A DNA stretch of 64,000 nt from NCBI GenBank assembly GCA_030418545.1, contig QAIB01000008.1:124001-188000 (forward strand), in the 5' to 3' direction. Origin of the DNA: Xenophilus aerolatus. Its GTDB lineage: Bacteria > Pseudomonadota > Gammaproteobacteria > Burkholderiales > Burkholderiaceae_C. Below, one piece after another: positions 14,916 to 25,752 of the stretch; position 1 is the first letter of the stretch, and each line of letters begins with the position of its first letter. The position numbers and the translations under genes were made by a program. The notes below the pieces were generated by a model, which searched no databases, was not told where the DNA came from, and saw only the letters and a program-made list of their open reading frames with translations.

Positions 14916-15653
14916 ATGGAAGCAAACGAAAACGAGCTGATCAACCAAGACGGCGAGGCCTTCTGGGATCTTGGGCGAGCGGAGGACATCGAGCCGCGTG
15001 TTAGCGAGCTGTGCGCGGCGGTGCGGGCGGCTCAGCCAGCCTTCTTCATGACGGAGAAGGCGAACGAACTTCGGGCCAAGGGGTGCGACGACGAAACCAT
15101 CCTGCTCGACGCCGTGCATGCTGGGTACGTCAAGCTCTGCAAGGCGCTCAAGGTCCAGTACATCGAAGACATCCACCCAAGCGTGGCGGTCGAACATCTG
15201 CGCGGCCTGCCGGTGCTGGAAGATGGCGGCCTGGTTCCTTACCTTGACCTCATCAAGACTATCGAAGCGAGCTACCGCTCGATTGGTCAGGTCGTTGTCA
15301 TGCTCAAGGCGCGCGATTCGCAGTACGTCTACGAGTTCAGCTCCAGCTACAACGGCGTCGAAAAGCCGGCGAAGCTGGTCGTCAGCATCAGCAATGGTGC
15401 CGACTTCGTCGTCGACGTGCAGGTGCAACTGGATGGCTACGTCTTTCGCGAAGACTACCTGTCCGACGATGCTGAAGACGAAAGCTGGGAAGAGGTGACT
15501 GCCAAGCAATTCCTCGCCGCCAGCCCCACTCAGGATTCGCTGGTTCTGGAGTTGCACAAGCCTTTCCATGACGCAGTCGAATATCGGCTTGGCGTCCTTC
15601 ACCGGATGCTTGCTGACGGCGTTGACTGGCTGAGCAAGGCGGAGTCAGTCTGA
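14916..15653 (+). CDS. Hypothetical phage protein (245 aa)
   Basis: I do not recognise this protein. It is acidic, soluble and without signal peptide or membrane segment. The first half is helical (EANENELINQDGEAFWDLG, 'AAVRAAQPAFFMTEKANELR'), and the second half has alternating beta-like segments such as KLVVSISNGADFVVDVQVQL. It starts at ATG 14916 behind GGAG. Its stop overlaps the ATG of the ParB-like gene (TGATG), so it is translationally coupled to the ParB and glycosyltransferase genes and may belong to the same function. Confidence 0.75.
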   Translation: MEANENELINQDGEAFWDLGRAEDIEPRVSELCAAVRAAQPAFFMTEKANELRAKGCDDETILLDAVHAGYVKLCKALKVQYIEDIHPSVAVEHLRGLPVLEDGGLVPYLDLIKTIEASYRSIGQVVVMLKARDSQYVYEFSSSYNGVEKPAKLVVSISNGADFVVDVQVQLDGYVFREDYLSDDAEDESWEEVTAKQFLAASPTQDSLVLELHKPFHDAVEYRLGVLHRMLADGVDWLSKAESV

Positions 15654-16372
15654 TGACCACCGCCACCGAGATCAAAAGCTTTGTCTCTGGTGGCGGCTTG
15701 CGGCGAGTGGACGACCTCGTTCCATTCGACCGCAACTCGCGCACCCACAGCGAAGCGCAAGTCGCACAGATCGCCGCGTCCATCAAGGAATTCGGCTTCA
15801 CGAATCCGATCCTGGTCGATGAGGCCAACACCATCATCGCCGGCGAAGGGCGGTGGAGGGCGGCGAAGAAGCTCAAGATGGACGAAGTGCCGTGCATCGT
15901 GATTGCTGGCCTGTCGCCTGCGCAGAAGGCAGCCTACGTCATTGCTGACAACAAGCTTGGCCTCAACTCAGCGTGGGACACCGAAATGCTGATGAAGGAG
16001 CTTGCGCGGCTCGATGAACTGCACTTCGACGTTGACCTTGCCGGGTTCAGCGAAGTGGAAATCCTCAATCTCTCGTGCGAGGTCGTTGTAGACGCTCCAG
16101 CCCCTGACGTCTCCAATGGTGTGGGAGAGCAGGTGGAAAACGGAACACAGGCCGACGGGTTCCCGACGCCACCCGAGAAGGACTGGAGCGGCATGCCGGA
16201 GTTCGTTCAGCCGGACGCAAGGCCCTTCCGCTCTGTGATCGTGCACATGCTGGACCAAGCTGCGGCCGATCAATTTGCGGCGCTCATCGGACAGACCATC
16301 ACCGAGAAGACCAAGTACGTGTTCTTTCCCAAGAAGGAGCAGCCTGCCGGTCCAAAGGAGGTGTTCGCCTGA
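15653..16372 (+). CDS. ParB/Srx-domain protein (ParB N-terminal fold)
   Basis: A 239-residue protein with a ParB-N domain at about 15-130. Seen are VDDLVPFDRNSRTHSEAQV, IAASIKEFGFTNPILVD, IIAGEGRWRAAKKL and 'VIADNKLGLNSAWD'. The GEGRWRAA element is the family's nucleotide-binding 'GxxRxxA' motif. It has no ParB HTH or dimer domain, so it is not a partition protein. In phages such stand-alone domains lie next to DNA methyltransferases or base-modifying enzymes; here it overlaps (stop/ATG) the TAGT-like glycosyltransferase gene. A role as CTPase/NTPase switch or accessory in DNA modification is inference. Confidence 0.88.
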   Translation: MTTATEIKSFVSGGGLRRVDDLVPFDRNSRTHSEAQVAQIAASIKEFGFTNPILVDEANTIIAGEGRWRAAKKLKMDEVPCIVIAGLSPAQKAAYVIADNKLGLNSAWDTEMLMKELARLDELHFDVDLAGFSEVEILNLSCEVVVDAPAPDVSNGVGEQVENGTQADGFPTPPEKDWSGMPEFVQPDARPFRSVIVHMLDQAAADQFAALIGQTITEKTKYVFFPKKEQPAGPKEVFA

Positions 16373-17283
16373 TGCACCTACCGAAGCATCCCGTCTACGT
16401 GGTGAGCAAAGGCCGCAGCCAGTACATGATGACTTCGCAGGTGCTGACGACGATGGGAGTCCATCACTTCGTCGTCGTTGAACCGCAAGAGGTCGATGTG
16501 TACGTCGATGCAATCGCCGCACGCAGTCTCAAGGCTTCAGTTCTTGAGCTGGACTTGACCTACAAGGACACGTACGAGCTGTGCGATGAGCACGGGCAGA
16601 CGAAGAGCACCGGACCTGGGCCAGCGCGCAACTTCGCGTGGGAGCACAGCATCGGCGCTGGCGCGTCATGGCACTGGGTCATGGACGACAACATCAAGAA
16701 CTTCTACCGGCTCCACAAGAACCGGAGAACGAAGTGCGTCAACCCAGGCATCTTCCTGGCGATGGAGGACTACGCAGAGCGATACGCCAACGTCGCGATG
16801 GTCGGTCCGAACTACTTGTCGTTTGTGCCAGACCGCGTGCGTCATCCGCCGTTCTTCAAGAACACGCGCATCTACTCGTGCAACTTGATTCGGAACAACG
16901 TGCCTTTCAGGTGGCGGTGCCGGTACAACGAAGACACGATCATGTCCATCGACATGCTCAAGGCGGGCTGGTGCACGATTGAGTTCAATGCCTTTCTGCA
17001 GCACAAGCAGCAGACGCAGAAGATGAGCGGCGGCAACACCGCTGAGTTCTACCACCGTGAGGGCGTTGTAGGGAAAGGCTCATATGCGGCTGGCGGCACC
17101 ACTGCGAAGTCGGTAATGCTTGTGAAGGTCCATCCCGATGTCGCACGCCTTGCGTGGCGGTTCGGCCGAGTGCATCACTACGTGGACTATCGGCCGTTTC
17201 GGGGACGGCGCCTGATTCTTCGCAAGGGGATCGTGCTGCCCACTGAGCCCAACGAATACGGCATGCAGCTGAGGTCGGTATGA
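16372..17283 (+). CDS. TET-associated-type glycosyltransferase (TAGT / GREB1-like)
   Basis: A 303-residue GT-A-fold-like glycosyltransferase. The N-terminus has 'HPVYVVSKGRSQ'; the metal-binding acidic site is in WHWVMDDNIKNFYRL (near residue 103); the later acidic motif is CRYNEDTIMSIDMLKAGW; an aromatic/His segment FNAFLQHKQQTQ follows. This matches the TAGT family described next to TET/JBP dioxygenases in phages and proposed to glycosylate oxidised bases in DNA. No TET/JBP or nucleotide hydroxymethylase is visible here, so the acceptor is open. It overlaps the ParB-like gene upstream and the 17280 gene downstream (ATGA). Confidence 0.75.
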   Translation: MHLPKHPVYVVSKGRSQYMMTSQVLTTMGVHHFVVVEPQEVDVYVDAIAARSLKASVLELDLTYKDTYELCDEHGQTKSTGPGPARNFAWEHSIGAGASWHWVMDDNIKNFYRLHKNRRTKCVNPGIFLAMEDYAERYANVAMVGPNYLSFVPDRVRHPPFFKNTRIYSCNLIRNNVPFRWRCRYNEDTIMSIDMLKAGWCTIEFNAFLQHKQQTQKMSGGNTAEFYHREGVVGKGSYAAGGTTAKSVMLVKVHPDVARLAWRFGRVHHYVDYRPFRGRRLILRKGIVLPTEPNEYGMQLRSV

Positions 17284-19394: not shown

Positions 19395-19413
19395 GTAGAT
19401 GCACAGCATCTAC
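19395..19413 (+). promoter_or_regulatory. Hairpin that buries the start codon of the GIY-YIG gene
   Basis: GTAGATGC (19395-19402), loop ACA, GCATCTAC (19406-19413). The ATG at 19399 lies inside the 5' arm. AATAAAATA just upstream resembles the TAAATA element. Hairpins that hide start signals are known from phage homing endonuclease genes such as I-TevI. Confidence 0.65.
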
Positions 19414-19845
19414 ATCATCACGAACACCCACACTGGCAAGGTCTACGTTGGCAGGGGTAAATCCATTGCGGGACGAAGAAAACATCACCGTAGTGCGCTC
19501 AGACACAATAGGCACTGGAATCCTGCGATGCAGGCAGATTACAACGCTGACCCTGATTCATGGGAGTGGTGTAAGACTCTTGAAGAAGTAGAGACGCTCG
19601 AAGAAGCTCTTCGAGCAGAGACTGAATGGATCAAGGCTTTTCCCGAGGTGTACAACTATTTCGGAAGAGACGATGCGACTTCACATCGTGCCAAGCTTTC
19701 AAAAGCACGGCGCGGGAACCCGCTGACGGCGGAGCACAGGGCCAAACTCAGTAAAGCGGCGTTGGGCAGGAAATTTACGGACGAGCATAGAGCAAAAATA
19801 GCAGCCTCGGTTAAGGCTGCTTACGCCAAGACGAGGAGCCGATAG
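19399..19845 (+). CDS. GIY-YIG homing endonuclease with NUMOD3 repeats (free-standing)
   Basis: A 148-residue endonuclease. The GIY-YIG module is at residues 2-90: IYIITNTHTGKVYVGRG, then 'RRKHHRSALRHNRHWNPAMQ', with catalytic Arg and Glu (LRAETEWIKAF). The tail has repeated 'AKLSKARRG..LTAEHRAKLSKAALG' NUMOD3 units that bind DNA. The N-terminal half is very similar to the protein at 20540, while the tails differ. A hairpin covers the start codon. Confidence 0.9.
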   Translation: MHSIYIITNTHTGKVYVGRGKSIAGRRKHHRSALRHNRHWNPAMQADYNADPDSWEWCKTLEEVETLEEALRAETEWIKAFPEVYNYFGRDDATSHRAKLSKARRGNPLTAEHRAKLSKAALGRKFTDEHRAKIAASVKAAYAKTRSR

Positions 19846-19848
19846 AGC

Positions 19849-20394
19849 TCAAATCCAGCCTTTAACTTTGGCGGCTCTTACCAGTTCGTCAAGCTCTCCA
19901 GGGCGAGGTTTGTTGACTTGCTCAAACGCCAATTGAACTGGAGACTTCACGCGCTTCTTGCGGCGTATGTCTACTGTTCCACCGACGTTCTGCAGTGGAT
20001 GCCCTTCACTCAGTAAAAAGTTCTTCCACCACGTTTCCGTCTCATTTCCCTCTGGATCAAGCACGACCATTCTCAGGGTGTGCCTAAATTTGTGATAGCG
20101 GGCGAACTCGTAGGCAGGCTTCATATCTCTGCCGTGTTCGATAGCGCGACGATGCTGGTCCCACCGCCTGTTTGGGTTGACAGCAATTCCTACGTAGAAG
20201 TAGATTGGGCATTCTTCTGGTCCAACGGCTAATGCGTAGACTTGGTCGATCTGCCGGCCAGTACTGTTCTTGAATTCTTGTTGCTTCTTGCGTTCGTCTT
20301 TGATCTTTTGCTTGACTCTAAAATTCATGTCGAATGTGGTAGTTTCGATCTGATATTTAGGGCCTATAAATAGCTTCGTAGACAACAAGCTCAA
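19849..20394 (-). CDS. GIY-YIG-domain protein with an amber codon after its best start
   Basis: A 181-residue frame with a GIY-YIG-like core (VYALAVGPEECPIYFYVGIA, then NPNRRWDQHRRAIEHG) and a basic region 'VDIRRKKRVKSPVQLAFEQV'. The only strong initiation signal on this strand is AGGAGG with ATG 20409, but that reading hits TAG at codon 5 (20395-20397) and the open frame resumes with TTG at the very next codon (20394). Either the gene restarts at TTG, or the amber is suppressed, or it is newly inactivated. It converges with the 19399 gene (3 bp apart). Confidence 0.65.
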   Translation of the reverse strand: MSLLSTKLFIGPKYQIETTTFDMNFRVKQKIKDERKKQQEFKNSTGRQIDQVYALAVGPEECPIYFYVGIAVNPNRRWDQHRRAIEHGRDMKPAYEFARYHKFRHTLRMVVLDPEGNETETWWKNFLLSEGHPLQNVGGTVDIRRKKRVKSPVQLAFEQVNKPRPGELDELVRAAKVKGWI

Positions 20395-20468
20395 CTAGGT
20401 TCTGTTCATAGTTCCTCCTAGGTTAAGGTTGTTAAGGTTGTTGAGCGTGTTATCTCCTTAGGCTTAAA

Positions 20469-20507
20469 GGCCCGCATATTCCTGACATGGTATGCGGGCC
20501 TTTTTTT
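20469..20507 (+). terminator. Strong hairpin with T tract
   Basis: GGCCCGCATA (20469-20478) pairs with TATGCGGGCC (20491-20500), then seven T residues on the plus strand. On the minus strand the 3' side is TTTAAGCC, so it may also end the 20540 transcript. Direct repeats of TTAAGGTTG lie beside it at about 20423-20443. Confidence 0.85.
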
Positions 20508-20539
20508 GCGCTGAATACGACGAAAGGGCCGTAGCCCTT

Positions 20540-20968
20540 TCAGATGTAGCGGAAGTTTGGATGCCTTGTGCCAGTCCTACCCTGCCCAAGCTCTTTGATC
20601 ATTTGCCGCTGTGATCGGTAAATGGTCACGCCGTCAATCGTGCACTTTCGTCCTGGCGAGCCGTTTGCGCCTGTCCTTTTCGCCTTGACGCCAGCTCGGC
20701 CGAGAATGTTGTAGACCTCCGGGAATGCGTTGACCCATTCCTTCTCAATTGCTCTACCATCATCGGACCCACCGTCCACGGTTTCAATAACGGTGTATTC
20801 CCAGCAAGTTGGGTCTTCGTTGTAATCAGCTTGCAGTGTGGGATTTGAATGCTTATTGCGTCGTAGCTCGCTGCGATGGACGTTAAATCGGAAGTAGGTG
20901 TCCAGTGTCTTGCCCACATAGACTTTGCCAGTGCGGGTGTTCGTGATGATGTAAAAGTGGTAGAGCAT
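20540..20968 (-). CDS. GIY-YIG homing endonuclease with a NUMOD1-like tail
   Basis: A 142-residue protein. The N-terminal GIY-YIG half (FYIITNTRTGKVYVGKTLD, 'VHRSELRRNKHSNPTLQADY', IEKEWVNAFPEVYNILGR) is clearly paralogous to the 19399 product. The C-terminal part (CTIDGVTIYRSQRQMIKELG) looks like a NUMOD1-type HTH, so the two share a nuclease but carry different DNA-binding ends. Its ATG lies 1-2 bp after the stop of the 20970 gene on the same strand. Confidence 0.87.
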   Translation of the reverse strand: MLYHFYIITNTRTGKVYVGKTLDTYFRFNVHRSELRRNKHSNPTLQADYNEDPTCWEYTVIETVDGGSDDGRAIEKEWVNAFPEVYNILGRAGVKAKRTGANGSPGRKCTIDGVTIYRSQRQMIKELGQGRTGTRHPNFRYI

Positions 20969-21920: not shown

Positions 21921-22154
21921 ATGGAAGACGATGTCGATCTGTGGAAGGTGGCTGGCTATTCCTGCTTGAGCTGGTTCGGCGCAGCATTGCTGTCGCCGCT
22001 GTTTGCTCTATTTGGGGCTGACTACGCGGTGGGCGCTACAGTGGTATGCGGCCTATTGGCAGGCGTCATGGCTGAAGGTGCGGGACGAAACGAAGCAGCG
22101 TTGAAGAAGGTCCGCGCGGAACTTGACGAGCTTCGTAAGAAGTATTCAACATAG
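21921..22154 (+). CDS. Small membrane protein with coiled-coil tail (77 aa)
   Basis: It starts MEDDVDLWKVAGYSCLSWFG behind GAGGG. Two hydrophobic segments (CLSWFGAALLSPLFALFG, YAVGATVVCGLLAGVMAEG) are followed by a charged helix AALKKVRAELDELRKKY. It may work with the 21658 protein, for instance as a holin/antiholin pair, but no homologue is recognised. Confidence 0.6.
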   Translation: MEDDVDLWKVAGYSCLSWFGAALLSPLFALFGADYAVGATVVCGLLAGVMAEGAGRNEAALKKVRAELDELRKKYST

Positions 22155-22206
22155 AATGGCTGCACCGCACGTGTCTGGCCGTCATTGACTCCAAGGCTGG
22201 CAGACC

Positions 22207-22620
22207 TTAAAACTTCGTCGGCTCATCCCACACTGGAAAGATCCCGTAGTTGAAGTCAGTGGCAATCTGAAAGACCCGCTTTACGGCATCTGAGCGTGTT
22301 GCCATCATCATGGTCCCGTCTTTCCTATAGACGCAGTGGCCAGCAAACACGCCTCCTTTCGCCACAATCTGATCAATTCGCTGCTGGTTGAATTTGAAGG
22401 CCATATTGACGCCCACGTCAAGGCCGCCGTCTTTGTCGCGTTCGATGCTTTGATACACCACCCTGTAGTTTTCAGGCCAATGCTCTGACAGTTGCTCGAC
22501 GCAGTGCTTGAACTGCTTTCGCTCCTGCATAGTTACGTCTGCGGGCTCATCGACCTCTGTCTTAACGCCGCAGCCCAAGATGTGCGCGCATACAAGAACA
22601 ATGGTTAGAAGCTTGGTCAT
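22207..22620 (-). CDS. Prophage-encoded lipoprotein (137 aa)
   Basis: MTKLLTIVLVCAHILGCGVK is a signal peptide with lipobox ILGC (lipidated Cys17). The mature part has 'QERKQFKHCVEQLSEHWPEN' and GGVFAGHCVYRKDGTMM, with two Cys that could form a disulfide. It is on the minus strand, apart from the late genes. Lipoproteins in this setting are often expressed by lysogens and cause superinfection exclusion; that is only a suggestion here. Confidence 0.75.
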   Translation of the reverse strand: MTKLLTIVLVCAHILGCGVKTEVDEPADVTMQERKQFKHCVEQLSEHWPENYRVVYQSIERDKDGGLDVGVNMAFKFNQQRIDQIVAKGGVFAGHCVYRKDGTMMMATRSDAVKRVFQIATDFNYGIFPVWDEPTKF

Positions 22621-22722
22621 GGCGGTCCTTTCAAGTGAGTTGCTTTACAATTTTAATTAGCGTACGGACCAATTACGGGCGTTACACTCTCCATTAATTA
22701 TTGCAGGAATGCACTTTTCTTA

Positions 22723-22728
22723 TAAATA
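22723..22728 (+). promoter_or_regulatory. TAAATA element before the structured leader
   Basis: TATAAATAAG (22721-22730), nine bases before the long stem at 22737. If it is a promoter, the transcript would begin almost at the stem. Confidence 0.55.
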
Positions 22729-22736
22729 AGTTGCGA

Positions 22737-22845
22737 CAGATTAAGAGAGACCTGAGTGGCTGTGGTGGCCTTGTACGATGCGTGCAAGCGGACGTGTTCC
22801 TCATTCAGGTCTCCCTTAATCTGTTGAACCATTAGTTGCCACCAC
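22737..22845 (+). ncRNA. Pseudoknotted RNA leader upstream of the polymerase gene
   Basis: The arms 22737-22758 and 22802-22823 pair over 22 positions with one A-C mismatch and one G-U. Inside the loop is a second hairpin, CTTGTAC (about 22770-22776) with GTGCAAG. Loop bases GTGGTGGC (22762-22769) are perfectly complementary to GCCACCAC (22838-22845) outside the stem, which makes a pseudoknot. The latter lies just before the weak GGA and ATG 22865. The design is like the loop/leader pseudoknot that controls repZ in IncI/IncB plasmids; alternatively it is a stand-alone RNA partner of the polymerase. Orientation is inferred from the gene. Confidence 0.68.
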
Positions 22846-22864
22846 GACTAGGAATCGCAGAACT

Positions 22865-23965
22865 ATGAAACAACCAAAAGCGCCCTTTGGCGCTTACGAA
22901 CCCAACCTGAGCAATAAGAAGGTACGCAGAGCAGTCGCTGAGAAATTGGCGAACTTAGAAGCTGCGGGCTTCTCCGCCGACAAGCCAAAGCAAATCTACG
23001 CTGACAGACTCAGCGAGCTGATTGGGCAATCAAATCACGACCTGGGCCGCTACATCCGCTCTACGTGTCTTATTCAGACACGCGGGTACAAGAAATCGGC
23101 AGAAGGGCCTAACGGTGCGGGCTTTCCTATTTCGTACAAGCTGAACGCCATCGGCTTCAGACTGCTCAAGGACAAACTGAAAGACTTTGACGACCTCAAG
23201 GTCGAAGCTGTCGTTGCAGATAAGAGGCTTGCGACATACGCCAAGCGGCATGTGGACGAACTGTCCGCTCTGACATTCAACTACACAGACAAGAACGGCC
23301 GGCTGTGGCATGGACTGCAAAACATCCCAAGAGCAGACAAGGTGGCTTTCTGGCGCCACCACAATCTGCCTTTCAACTACGACATCAGCGCCTGCGCTCC
23401 AACCATCCTTATCCAGCTCGCGCACAACGTGGGGATGCTTGAGCTGCTGCAAGGACCAATCCACGCTTACATTAACAACAAAGATTCAATGCGTGCCCGG
23501 ATTGCCGAAGAGTTGGGAATTTCGCGTCAGCACGCTAAGCAAATTTTGAACTCCCTCTTCAACGGGGCACGACTTGCCAAGAACAACTTCTGCGCCATCT
23601 ACCGGGACTTGCCTGGACCGCCAGTGGACAAGAACAGGCGCATGGAGTGGTTGCAAAGCGATGTCGAAATTTCGCTGCTGAAGACTGCCATCGACCACGC
23701 ATGGTGGAAGATCGGGCGCAAGCTGGATGTCAATACGAAAAAGGGCGCCGTCCGCTGGAACATCTACTTCACGGCCGAACGGACGGTGCTGAACTCAATC
23801 GTGCGGTACCTGGACGAGAAGGGCCTGCAATTCTTTACTGAACATGACGGGTTCAGATCGAGCGGCGAGGTCGATACGGACGAGCTGAGTGGGTGGATCA
23901 AGGACAAGACGGGCTATGACTTGCAGATCGAGCGGGAAGAAGAGACACCACTTGAGCAGCATTAA
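22865..23965 (+). CDS. Minimal family-A-like polymerase (putative, divergent)
   Basis: A 366-residue protein not assigned with certainty. Three elements look like palm/fingers motifs of family A DNA polymerases or single-subunit RNA polymerases: FNYDISACAPTILIQLA (motif A, near residue 175), SRQHAKQILNSLFNGARL (motif B, with the K..N.-F-G pattern, near 220), and LQFFTEHDGFRSSGE (motif C 'HD', near 322). No exonuclease domain and no room for one. The N-terminal 100 residues (SNKKVRRAVAEKLANLEAAG) are helical. It lies between a pseudoknotted leader and iteron-like repeats, so replication is the leading guess. An unrelated Rep protein with coincidental motifs cannot be excluded. Confidence 0.6.
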   Translation: MKQPKAPFGAYEPNLSNKKVRRAVAEKLANLEAAGFSADKPKQIYADRLSELIGQSNHDLGRYIRSTCLIQTRGYKKSAEGPNGAGFPISYKLNAIGFRLLKDKLKDFDDLKVEAVVADKRLATYAKRHVDELSALTFNYTDKNGRLWHGLQNIPRADKVAFWRHHNLPFNYDISACAPTILIQLAHNVGMLELLQGPIHAYINNKDSMRARIAEELGISRQHAKQILNSLFNGARLAKNNFCAIYRDLPGPPVDKNRRMEWLQSDVEISLLKTAIDHAWWKIGRKLDVNTKKGAVRWNIYFTAERTVLNSIVRYLDEKGLQFFTEHDGFRSSGEVDTDELSGWIKDKTGYDLQIEREEETPLEQH

Positions 23966-24202
23966 CAACAAGCTATGTTTGTAACAACTTTCGTCCAGCT
24001 CATTCTGAGAGACACCCGCAGAGCAGCATTAACAACAAGCTATGTTTGTAACAACTTTCGACCAGCTCATTCACCGCCTCGACCGACCCATTTTGAGAGC
24101 CACCCGCAGAGCAGCATCAACAACAAGCTATGTTTGTAACAACTTTGCTCCAGTAGGTGGGCCGTCCGTTTTCCGGCCCAATTATTGCTTGTAACAACTT
24201 CC
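23954..24202 (+). repeat. Four iteron-like direct repeats after the polymerase gene
   Basis: Units begin at 23954, 24021 and 24109 (periods 67 and 88 bp) with core GAGCAGCATTAACAACAAGC then TATGTTTGTAACAACTT and CCAG. A fourth, decayed copy (GCTTGTAACAACTTCCGG) is at about 24187-24204. The first unit includes the last three codons and stop of the polymerase gene. A 21-bp insertion separates units 2 and 3. The layout suits a replication-initiator binding array; the spacing is irregular and the units too alike in the 'spacer' for CRISPR. Confidence 0.8.
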
Positions 24203-24204
24203 GG

Positions 24205-25030
24205 CCAGCCGAGATTTTCACGCTGCCGCCATTCCCAGCCGCATTCCACAGCCCCCAATCGTCAACCACCGCCTCCAATCGTCAACCTGCGGGCCTCCTT
24301 TAAGTGTAACAAAAAAGAGGTGTCTGGTGTGATCTGGAGGGGTCTGGGTGCACCCGGTGCGTTCCGGGGTGACTTGCGCCGGAGTGAGTAGATTGGTGAT
24401 TTCTACACCTTTTTAAGCCCCTCAACGGAGAGCCTCGTAACACAAAAGTTGTGTACTTTTTGGAGAAAGCGCCACCCTATAGACGCAACTTCTGAAAAGT
24501 GCCAACTATAAGGAGCAAGTGGGCCCGCCCGGACATCGTTACACAAACCCCGTTTACTTTTACCGGCAAGTTGGCAAATCCGGCCTTTATTCACTTTTGA
24601 GGCGTTTCCCAACTCTTTGAGTGAAGTCATCCACTTCATTCAGGACGAAGGTGGCTGCAGGATCGGACGGTAACGACCTAGTTACGCTCCGATCCCAGAG
24701 CCATGCTGGTCCTCTCAGCTGGTCAAGCTCTATCAGAACCTTGACAGGTCCTGGCCCAGAGGACTTGGGTCCCATTAGGTGATGGCTCTGTCATCTGAGC
24801 AGGATAGGTGTCTCTGGGCCTCAACCTGCACCTCATGGATTACGTCTTGGCCCAGGTTGTTGGGCGTCCGGACGGGCTGACTCGCGGGTATCACATTAAG
24901 GTAATGGACGCCCCAGATAAGGACGCGCGGAAAGTCCTCGCCAAGTTATATCGCTCGGGCGGGCTCACTCGGACATAAAAGCTGGATTGGGAGTCCGGGC
25001 GGGCTGACTTGCCTCCTTAAATACGGACTA
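24205..25030. ncRNA. Non-coding region dense in nested inverted repeats (candidate large RNA or origin)
   Basis: No convincing gene in over 800 bp. Structures seen: AGGTGT/ACACCT enclosing 24318-24409; ACACAA-AAG-TTGTGT at 24440-24454; interleaved AGTTGG/CCAACT (24569/24609) with TTCACT/AGTGAA (24590/24620), a pseudoknot pattern; TGAAGT/ACTTCA (24622/24633); GGATCGGA/TCCGATCC (24660/24688) with inner GTAAC/GTTAC; three nested stems CAGAGCCAT/ATGGCTCTG (24696/24782), GTCCTCT/AGAGGAC (24709/24758), GTCAAG/CTTGAC (24722/24740); GGGCGTCC/GGACGCCC (24862/24906). GGCCCAGAG (24753) can also pair with CTCTGGGCC (24812), competing with the second nested stem. Three copies of TCCGGRCGGGCTGACTYGC lie at 24867, 24955 and 24994. 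Strand is not known. Confidence 0.6.
25018..25023 (+). promoter_or_regulatory. TAAATA element before the 25048 gene
   Basis: TTAAATAC, 30 bases from ATG 25048, framed by AGTCCG (24992-24997) and CGGACT (25024-25029), which are inverted repeats. Confidence 0.55.
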
Positions 25031-25047
25031 CCAATTGCCGAACAAAC

Positions 25048-25260
25048 ATGAAAGACATTGACGAAGACCTAGCCAAGGCAATCCATCAAGCAATGCCCGA
25101 CTCTCTCCACGAAGAGGTCGCAAAGTTCAAAGATGAACTATCCATCACGCCGCCTGATGACGTTGCGAAGATTGAAGTGCTGAAGCAGAAGTTGGAGGCA
25201 CTCCGTGCTCAAGCAATTGAGCATTACCGCTTCATGACTGAAGGTCCGCCGAAAGATTAA
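25048..25260 (+). CDS. Hypothetical phage protein (70 aa)
   Basis: It begins MKDIDEDLAKAIHQAMPDSL and has a coiled-coil-like stretch DVAKIEVLKQKLEALRAQA. Acidic, soluble, not recognised. It is the first gene after the structured region and precedes TerS, so a packaging accessory role is possible. Confidence 0.68.
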   Translation: MKDIDEDLAKAIHQAMPDSLHEEVAKFKDELSITPPDDVAKIEVLKQKLEALRAQAIEHYRFMTEGPPKD

Positions 25261-25272
25261 CGTAGCGCGCAC

Positions 25273-25308
25273 TAAATACTCCCGTCATAACAAAAGACGG
25301 GAGTACAA
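25273..25308 (+). promoter_or_regulatory. TAAATA element plus perfect hairpin before TerS
   Basis: TAAATA at 25273-25278, overlapped by TACTCCCGTC pairing with GACGGGAGTA (10 bp, about 25277-25305), then CAA and ATG 25309. No ribosome-binding site outside the hairpin is visible. Confidence 0.62.
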
Positions 25309-25752
25309 ATGCGCAAATACGCAATCCTGCCACCTGAGACGGGTTGGCGAGCTGAATTGGCTAAGCGCAAGGTTGAATGGACAAACCGCAGCCTAGACCA
25401 AATTCACCAAGACATCGAGGACTACGTCTACCAAGAGGCCATGAACGGCACGAAGCTGTCATGGCTCGCACGGGAGTTTGGAGTCACGCCAGGAGAGTTC
25501 CGCTCTCTCTATGAAGGCGTCTGGCAGTTGGGTCATGACGCGCTACTGAAGGCCATCACGACCGACACGCTCGATGCAGCGCTGAACACCAATCAGGTCG
25601 TCGCAAAGATTTGGGCAGGCAAGGCAATCGCTGGCATGTCCGACGGTGGCGGCAGCATGCGGTCGGTAGACGTAGATGAGACGGACTTCGACAGCAACGA
25701 CGTCAAGATCAACGTCAACATCGTTCGTCGCAAAGACAACGCTGACGAATGA
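25309..25752 (+). CDS. Terminase small subunit (putative)
   Basis: A 147-residue protein. An N-terminal HTH-like region (SLDQIHQDIEDYVYQEAMNG, KLSWLAREFGVTPGEFRSL) is followed by the helical 'DALLKAITTDTLDAALNTNQ' and VVAKIWAGKAIAGMSDGG. The last part matches the 'A..G......wiGK..lG..D' oligomerisation pattern of TerS proteins. The acidic tail ends DVKINVNIVRRKDNADE. The position two genes before TerL supports it; it would recognise pac or cos DNA. Its stop overlaps the next ATG. Confidence 0.78.
   Translation: MRKYAILPPETGWRAELAKRKVEWTNRSLDQIHQDIEDYVYQEAMNGTKLSWLAREFGVTPGEFRSLYEGVWQLGHDALLKAITTDTLDAALNTNQVVAKIWAGKAIAGMSDGGGSMRSVDVDETDFDSNDVKINVNIVRRKDNADE

Follow-up and report, generated by a model that had tools for sequence, protein, structure and literature searches.

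The window analysed here, a stretch of 64,000 nucleotides from Xenophilus aerolatus, contains a prophage that corresponds to a region of lower G+C between about 13.2 and 48.9 kb. A serine recombinase lies at one side, followed by terminase, portal- and tail-like genes (all of these recognised by eye in the ORF list), and the prophage ends, by our reading of the borders, seem to interrupt a single host gene. Comparison of 16 prophage ORFs with Pfam and PHROGs recovered recombinases, ParB_N, a glycosyltransferase, GIY-YIG domains and a weak small-terminase match, and no replication family. The polymerase gene studied here (22865-23965, + strand) sits between small genes on the opposite strand and the packaging genes. 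The features in and around it are the following:

22721..22726, +: putative -10 element TATAAA, read from the sequence, 7-9 nt before the leader stem
22736..22758, +: 5' arm of the leader stem P1 (inverted repeat I2; P1 recovered in seven loci)
22761..22769, +: K1 strand TGTGGTGGC in the apical loop (permutation test, seven-locus comparison)
22781..22790, +: P2 arm CGU-GCAA-GCG, the GCAA at this loop being the part common to the seven leaders
22796..22801, +: K2 strand GTTCCT on the 3' side of the apical loop, pairing with 22850-22855
22802..22824, +: 3' arm of P1 (inverted repeat, seven-locus comparison)
22833..22850, +: hairpin P3, TAGTT-loop-GACTA, its loop holding K1' GCCACCAC at 22838-22845 (folding, seven-locus layout)
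22850..22855, +: K2' AGGAAT, overlapping a putative Shine-Dalgarno AGGA
22865..23965, +: predicted minimal family A-like polymerase of 366 aa (ORF; AF2, Foldseek, motif columns), modelled with a winged-helix-like N-terminal domain (about residues 11-110) and a palm/fingers core (about 130-357)
23954..24209, +: downstream repeat array, putative iterons/origin, with 40-nt copies at 23954 and 24021 and a 28-nt copy at 24119
24186, +: diverged 24-nt copy of the same array, core TGTTTGTAACAACTTT

Transcription from the putative TATAAA element would begin near the base of the leader stem; a promoter consensus scan called no + strand promoter at 22721..22726. DNA bases may be modified in this prophage: at 15653-17283, a gene with a ParB_N domain precedes one that resembles TET-associated glycosyltransferases (Pfam TAGT; PHROG beta-glucosyl-HMC-alpha-glucosyltransferase). 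Closer to the polymerase (19399-20968), there are three GIY-YIG genes, those at 19399 (+) and 20540 (-) passing the Pfam threshold and that at 19849 (-) falling short of it; in the related locus L016, a relative of these genes lies directly upstream of the polymerase. A GIY-YIG reading by eye of the frames beside two other polymerases of the family (L017 and L164) was dropped, Pfam lending it no support. Long-range inverted repeats (30 nt at 73% and 20 nt at 90%) occupy 24502-25012, in the ORF-poor stretch before the terminase genes.

The polymerase and its relatives

The original prediction described motif A-, B- and C-like elements in order in the 366-residue product, and the motif columns of the family confirmed this. 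The motifs are YDISACAPT (A), K225..G234 (B) and EHDG (C), and R146, Q152, Y172, D173, R210, K225, W280, Y301, E305, H327, D328 and G329 were identical in all 75 sequences, the window protein included, that were long enough for the motif alignment. Motif B agreed only in part: K225 was invariant (75/75), and the R-x3-K that had been proposed was not kept, position 221 being variable. The family also has no Tyr before the Gly of motif B, and no fingers Asp was invariant or nearly so between motifs A and B (alignment A4). The two catalytic Asp, D173 and D328, are 155 residues apart in the window protein (family median 163, range 145-185).

A palm/fingers fold with two metal-site Asp had been expected, and this is what structure prediction returned. 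The AlphaFold model (AF2, 31 sequences) had a mean pLDDT of 90.2 and a pTM of 0.82, and its best Foldseek match in the PDB was the Klenow fragment (1d8y, E 8.2e-5, probability 1.0, TM 0.44 by query length); Taq polymerase was second and T7 DNA polymerase ranked fourth (E 1.2e-3), RNA polymerases scored lower, and three of the 272 PDB matches reached E 0.001. Viral structure models that ranked high included the replication protein of Zamilon virus, which is a virophage, and a phage 'putative DNA polymerase I'; the polymerase of Rheinheimera phage Barba31A was found at rank 21. The window protein is thus predicted to adopt a family A palm/fingers fold, with no exonuclease domain, as the original prediction had also stated. 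In the model, a hairpin (strands 141-143 and 146-148) carries R146, and helices are predicted at 113-128 and 130-135, candidates for the thumb region. The N-terminal 110 residues (pLDDT 86; predicted helix-strand-helix-helix-hairpin) had no significant match in the PDB (best E 0.12); many winged-helix proteins were among the weak matches, and we call this domain winged-helix-like.

At the fifth position after the motif A Asp (D+5), 72 of the 75 sequences have Ala and three have Cys. By motif alignment, not by superposed coordinates, this is the position of E710 of E. coli Pol I, whose role is ribose exclusion according to the excerpted text of PMC7581432. Insofar as the motif alignment is right, the small residue hints at the use of NTPs.

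The family comprises about 80 relatives, almost all from uncultivated phages, at 22-36% identity to the window protein. In IMG/VR, a first round of pattern scanning yielded 41 loci and a later one 87 relatives, 80 of which were kept (overlapping sets); a scan of genome_contigs (84,980 species) gave five loci including the window's own, and a profile search of 399 genomes of the same order gave only the window's own match. After removal of two genes with an in-frame stop, the set of 85 rows contained 83, of which 78 passed a crude 90% filter; these 78 'distinct' genes retain four pairs at least 80% identical, one of them at 99% (L041/L042). The two removed before counting, L069 (on the same contig as L019) and L023, have the stop within the matched stretch and are possibly pseudogenes, sequencing errors or cases of recoding.

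Searches with the window protein in Pfam, PHROGs, NCBIfam, PADLOC (0 families at E 10) and the PDB (phmmer) yielded nothing usable. PF00476 matched neither the window protein nor, at E 0.1, any of the 31 A4 members, and a profile search of PDB sequences with the family recovered no polymerase. Direct comparison of the family with PolA by hhalign gave 1.4% (E 0.04) and was not significant in any setting tried. The family did match a group of three proteins, two from Polaromonas plasmids and one from a Desulfovibrio phage (hhalign 99.6%, E 6e-24), and this group matched PolA at 89% (E 2e-6) by default and at 43% (E 2.5e-4) with context pseudocounts off; the PolA comparison was redone after removing two wrong ORFs (L058, L161). 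Since the direct profile, PF00476 and PDB-sequence comparisons were negative, the case for kinship to PolA depends on the predicted structure and on the intermediates from plasmids. The segment GRLWHGLQNIP of the window protein resembles GRLSS..NLQNIP of PolA.

The Polaromonas plasmids pW9NP1 (L005 37-1653, 538 aa) and pH8NP1 (L056 6095-7600, 501 aa) encode larger polymerase relatives, annotated as hypothetical and as Clp N-terminal domain protein; that of pW9NP1 lies directly before RepA, and a pattern search with the 538-aa protein recovered no viral relatives. A distant relative (L057 5001-5855) occurs in two unannotated records of a 142 kb Desulfovibrio/Nitratidesulfovibrio phage. Weak tblastn matches in Erwinia phages were dropped; the one opened lies antisense to an annotated gene. 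Among the open-access papers that literature searches listed, none names the polymerase family or the leader in its title or at the start of its abstract.

The leader RNA

The upstream stem of the original prediction was recovered as P1, a 23 nt inverted repeat that is 91% complementary. The 144-nt leader folds at -55 kcal/mol (z -5.4), and none of 200 shuffles folded as low. The proposed pairing of its apical loop with sequence before the start codon also held (K1, GTGGTGGC at 22762-22769 with GCCACCAC at 22838-22845), and we found a second pairing that had been missed, between 22796-22801 and 22850-22855 (K2). The window's K2, six pairs including one G-U, is the weakest of the seven leaders compared below (12.5, vs 15 with the tail of L016), and the window's own minimum-energy fold draws the P2 arm differently. 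The AGGA within K2' is a putative ribosome-binding site. Rfam returned for the window (22000-25400) only mir-4788, at 23.8 bits vs a gathering score of 91 and a chance match at E 1; for the six other leader loci it returned a single tRNA in L108 and no leader match at gathering score.

Seven loci share the leader: the window, L016, L017, L046, L066, L108 and L164. L016, whose polymerase is 36% identical to that of the window, has the same leader, and a scan for long stems near the genes (25-90 nt loop) recovered the same layout in L017, L046, L066 and L108. A pattern derived from the L046 and L108 RNAs and blind to the protein found one new contig, L164, where a polymerase relative again stands behind the leader (its identity to L117 is 24%, E 1.6e-12; YDIKSAKPT and FIHDGF); this protein departs from the family at motif B (no Gly at K+9) and, by our reading, has Lys at D+5. 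A pattern of the window type matched 11 contigs: two were the window's phage and L016, and the nine others, with no polymerase match in the fetched stretch, were judged chance matches.

The common plan runs from P1 (20-26 bp) through the K1 arm, the P2 arm with its GCAA loop and the K2 arm to P3, with K1' in its loop, and K2'; by sequence reading, each of the seven has K2' on the presumed ribosome-binding site or directly 5' of it. The other six leaders fold with z-scores between -4.4 and -6.3. Counted from arms with hand-chosen boundaries, the MAFFT leader alignment having misplaced the arms, 137 of 140 P1 pairs are canonical, 19 of 20 positions vary and 14 have at least three pair types. When the K1 partners were permuted among loci (L016 left out, its K1 being equal to that of the window), the sum for the own partners was reached by one of 720 arrangements, itself; for K2 in seven loci, two of 5040 were as good, the true one included. 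An earlier unrestricted matrix had given the L066 loop 20.5 with the tail of L046 vs 20 with its own, and the window loop 24 with the tail of L016 vs 22.5 with its own. The leader is a real RNA structure. The seven are not independent events, since the window and L016 are alike, as are L046, L108 and L164; in the polymerase tree, five leaders fall in one clade (100/99) and L108 elsewhere, L164 having been found after the tree was made.

A stricter descriptor run on 471,809 bases gave 21 matches, the highest-ranking being six leaders and the L046 stem read in antisense; 40 shuffled regions gave one match. All six lie upstream of the gene on the coding strand. Among phage and plasmid loci totalling 1,794,167 bases (some overlapping), seven distinct leaders scored at least 62 and the next distinct match 53.5, and a scan of 76 upstream regions of 190 nt recovered six leaders and no further one. 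The loop complementarity predicted to be conserved in homologues was thus found, with covarying stem and pairing, in seven loci, and these scans found no stringent leader in most of the polymerase relatives. L017 has a 146-aa frame of no known family between leader and polymerase gene.

By eye, we observed leader-like shorter folds with a possible loop pairing upstream of L083 4989, L117 2977, L025 and L061 9980; these were excluded from the leader count. The fold of L083 (CTTGCCG/CGGCAAG and GATGTCT/AGACATC), reached by no scan, resembles a shorter-stemmed leader.

Repeats and other replication genes

The window has three close repeat copies and a diverged fourth, all 3' of the gene. In L016 and L017, too, the repeats follow the gene, whereas those of L046 are internal to it. 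An exact repeat of 16-77 nt (28 direct, 5 inverted) is common to the linker-coding region and the gene end in 33 of the 76 genes of the family that could be tested; such paired repeats were absent from the other 43, and none of 145 control ORFs reached a linker/end repeat of 15 nt. Among the six leader loci tested, L108 has paired repeats and the window, L016, L017, L066 and L046 do not.

The common motif of these repeats, ATACCCTAkTGTATTACAAGTC, matched 50 times in genes (about 86 kb), 24 times in the 300 nt behind them (23 kb), twice in the 300 nt before them (23 kb) and 12 times elsewhere (808 kb). The corresponding densities are 0.58/kb (genes), 1.03/kb (300 nt downstream) and 0.015/kb (far away); because the motif came from linker copies of the same genes, the in-gene density is partly built in, and so is part of the downstream excess where those genes carry the matching copy. 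It does not match the window's own repeats, which are a version of their own. Repeats are similar within one genome and different between genomes, as expected if each set were matched to its own protein. Since 26 of 32 linker copies are in the same reading frame (L096 and the near-copies L041/L042 clearly are not), a peptide-level cause of the linker repeats is possible.

In 24 phage records of 30-52 kb, some of which may be fragments, we searched for three protein families, DnaB_C and D5_N (both at E 0.001) and DNA_pol_A (E 10), and found each in none; among 14 control genomes, 14, 3 and 10 were positive, respectively. Pfam annotation of the phages carrying L046 (27 of 35 listed ORFs) and L108 (9 of 43), 36 of 78 ORFs in all, revealed terminase, portal, endonuclease VII, a sigma factor, methyltransferases and others, and no helicase or primase. 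As DnaB_C, D5_N and DNA_pol_A were not found in the 24 records, the family polymerase may be the main replication gene of these phages.

Proposed role and nearest known systems

We propose that the window gene encodes a phage origin-binding initiator with its own priming or polymerising domain, preceded by a translation-limiting leader, and we give this reading a probability of roughly 0.5. Computation supplied its basis, namely the fold prediction, catalytic residues that do not vary, leader covariation and the repeats; we infer DNA binding to the repeats, primase activity, an origin function and translational repression. The winged-helix-like domain would bind the short repeats in its own linker and/or just behind the stop codon, which would constitute the origin; the family A-like palm would make a first primer or short strand there, and the host replisome would extend it. 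The upstream RNA would be a structured mRNA leader, with a stem of about 22 bp, small apical arms, a hairpin and the presumed ribosome-binding site. It would limit translation through its two pairings, that of one apical arm with the loop of the hairpin and that of a second arm with a stretch that overlaps or directly precedes the presumed ribosome-binding site. About 22 bp of helix (roughly 60 A) separate K1 from the base of the stem; pairing in cis beside the fully formed stem appears geometrically unlikely, because K1' begins only 4-13 nt past the end of P1, and P1 would have to open. We thus prefer a K1 pairing between two molecules, which would give a dose-dependent repression rising with gene copies. 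An initiator-primase with origin repeats and a translation-limiting leader would account for most of the features.

One rival sees in the protein an RNA polymerase or RNA primase of the phage instead of a DNA polymerase, with the repeats as its promoters. It would explain why the equivalent of the ribose-excluding E710 is Ala (72) or Cys (3 of 75) and why the repeat motif is close to the gene and rare elsewhere, and the reverse complement of this motif may resemble the T7 promoter. Each locus has few motif copies, however, with only 12 of 88 matches far from the gene, the PDB matches favour DNA polymerases over RNA polymerases, and the D+5 assignment comes from motif alignment, not from superposed coordinates; we consider this reading unlikely. 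The reduced fingers motif B (no conserved R-x3-K, no Tyr before Gly) and the lost PolA profile signal could also betray a degenerate, inactive polymerase relative that serves only as a repressor or accessory DNA-binding protein. Yet the catalytic Asp pair, the hairpin Arg, K225, E305 and His327 are identical in 75/75 sequences at 22-36% identity, which argues for selection on the active site and makes an inactive relative very improbable.

Other rivals concern the leader. The folded RNA might be the working partner (primer, template, guide or allosteric cofactor) of an RNA-dependent polymerase system in replication or anti-phage defence. A simple attenuator would not need so elaborate an RNA as this cloverleaf-like one, with its conserved GCAA loop and two covarying pairings that cross, and polymerases far apart in the family have it (five in a single clade, L108 outside it, and L164, which was detected by its RNA alone); moreover, CCPol-MP, a primase discussed below, is described as extending a primer on an RNA template (PMC7581432, excerpted text). 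A partner role is nevertheless quite unlikely: only seven leaders were recovered among all loci scanned, the 76 upstream regions of 190 nt adding none beyond six, L017 has another frame between leader and polymerase gene, every leader has K2' on or directly 5' of the presumed ribosome-binding site, and PADLOC gave no match. Somewhat less probable still is a scheme in which the leader is released and dimerises or docks via its two kissing arms as primer, template or switch for a minimal polymerase that would be the small phage's only replication enzyme, with the paired repeats as start or copying sites. A leader that worked as DNA, for instance as a hairpin origin or packaging signal, and whose RNA form was incidental would suit a long near-perfect inverted repeat beside a putative replication gene, but K2' is at or just before the presumed ribosome-binding site in the seven, and the six scanned leaders are all upstream on the coding strand; we regard it as the least probable reading, the G-U strand bias of the leader (3 G-U vs 1 A-C) being too small to decide between the two roles. 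The original prediction had offered either a plasmid-like replication control locus or a new RNA-associated polymerase system. Replication control is the better alternative, because the searches made found no other replication gene, many of the genes have iteron-like repeats within or behind them, and the second pairing lies near the presumed ribosome-binding site. The other loses ground, since most relatives have no stringent leader, L017 has its intervening frame and small TV-Pol/CCPol-type polymerases are already known.

The arrangement proposed here, that of an initiator-primase, has parallels in several systems. In lambda O/ori, repeats lie in the linker-coding part of the initiator gene, as here; in contrast to lambda O, the linker repeat of the window family is usually matched behind the gene (28 direct, 5 inverted) and the domain is a polymerase fold. 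In I-complex plasmids, antisense RNA and a pseudoknot control replication genes such as repZ. The replication genes of these plasmids resemble the window gene in having a folded leader before the initiator, with kissing loops as a control step (excerpts of PMC10724649), whereas the window leader is one long-stemmed sense-strand RNA with two crossing pairings.

The nearest named family is TV-Pol, predicted primase-polymerases of mobile elements and viruses that likewise have a minimal family A-type core with the hairpin Arg, two Asp and no nuclease domain. TV-Pols, for which the source covers a Sputnik virophage protein, are 400-600 residues long (Iyer, Abhiman, Aravind 2008, PMC2579912), so that the window protein, at 366 the typical length of its family, is hardly 'far smaller than known' polymerases as originally claimed. 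TV-Pols are characterised there by an absolutely conserved hairpin Arg, RxxxK with a fingers Asp and a coiled-coil two-helix thumb, and a D5-like helicase is fused or adjacent in many, not all, members (PMC2579912). In the window family, RxxxK and a fingers Asp are not conserved, and the 24 records (some possibly fragments) gave no D5_N match. Its N-terminus is winged-helix-like, and a folded leader and repeats go with genes of the family. As the RxxxK and the link to a D5 helicase are not seen, we do not assign the family to TV-Pol.

The nearest tested enzyme, by analogy, is CCPol-MP, an A-family primase found in SCC elements, whose putative origin carries iterons (PMC7581432, excerpted text). 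CCPol-MP and the PolA-SSB pairs, the latter surveyed in Bacillota as far as the excerpts of PMC10061031 go, share with our family, as we read it, an A-family polymerase acting as mobile-element primase, no proofreading, and iterons at a putative origin. The catalytic Asp of CCPol (D169 and D324, PMC7581432) are 155 residues apart, as are D173 and D328 in the window (family median 163, 145-185). CCPol differs in keeping, according to the same excerpts, the steric-gate Glu and Phe, where the window family has Ala or Cys at the steric gate, and in needing an OB-fold partner and occurring together with a COG3378-type (COG3378/DUF927) helicase; D5_N was found in 0/24 records here. Primer-independent synthesis is a further mark of the CCPol-MP type. 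The reduced family A polymerases divPolA1 and divPolA2 also belong to tailed phages, and at least divPolA1 has a truncated thumb with catalytic residues kept; unlike the window protein, divPolA1 keeps an inactivated exonuclease domain, and divPolA2 phages also encode PolB. No leader RNA or repeats appear in the excerpted divPolA descriptions (PMC11348598).

How replication starts is often unclear in 35-kb phages without recognisable helicase, primase or polymerase genes. If our proposal is true, an initiator-primase that is self-contained and has its origin placed around its gene would provide the explanation for a group of such phages. It would also widen the small set of A-family primases, of which the literature considered here reports tests of CCPol-MP type enzymes only. 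The small steric-gate residue makes the use of dNTPs vs NTPs a sharp biochemical question. The leader, a structured RNA with clean covariation and no Rfam match, offers a concrete control circuit. In L046, L108 and L164, its P2 arm has a 5-bp stem and a GCAAU pentaloop, the size of a phage boxB hairpin, and a protein-binding role of this arm is possible.
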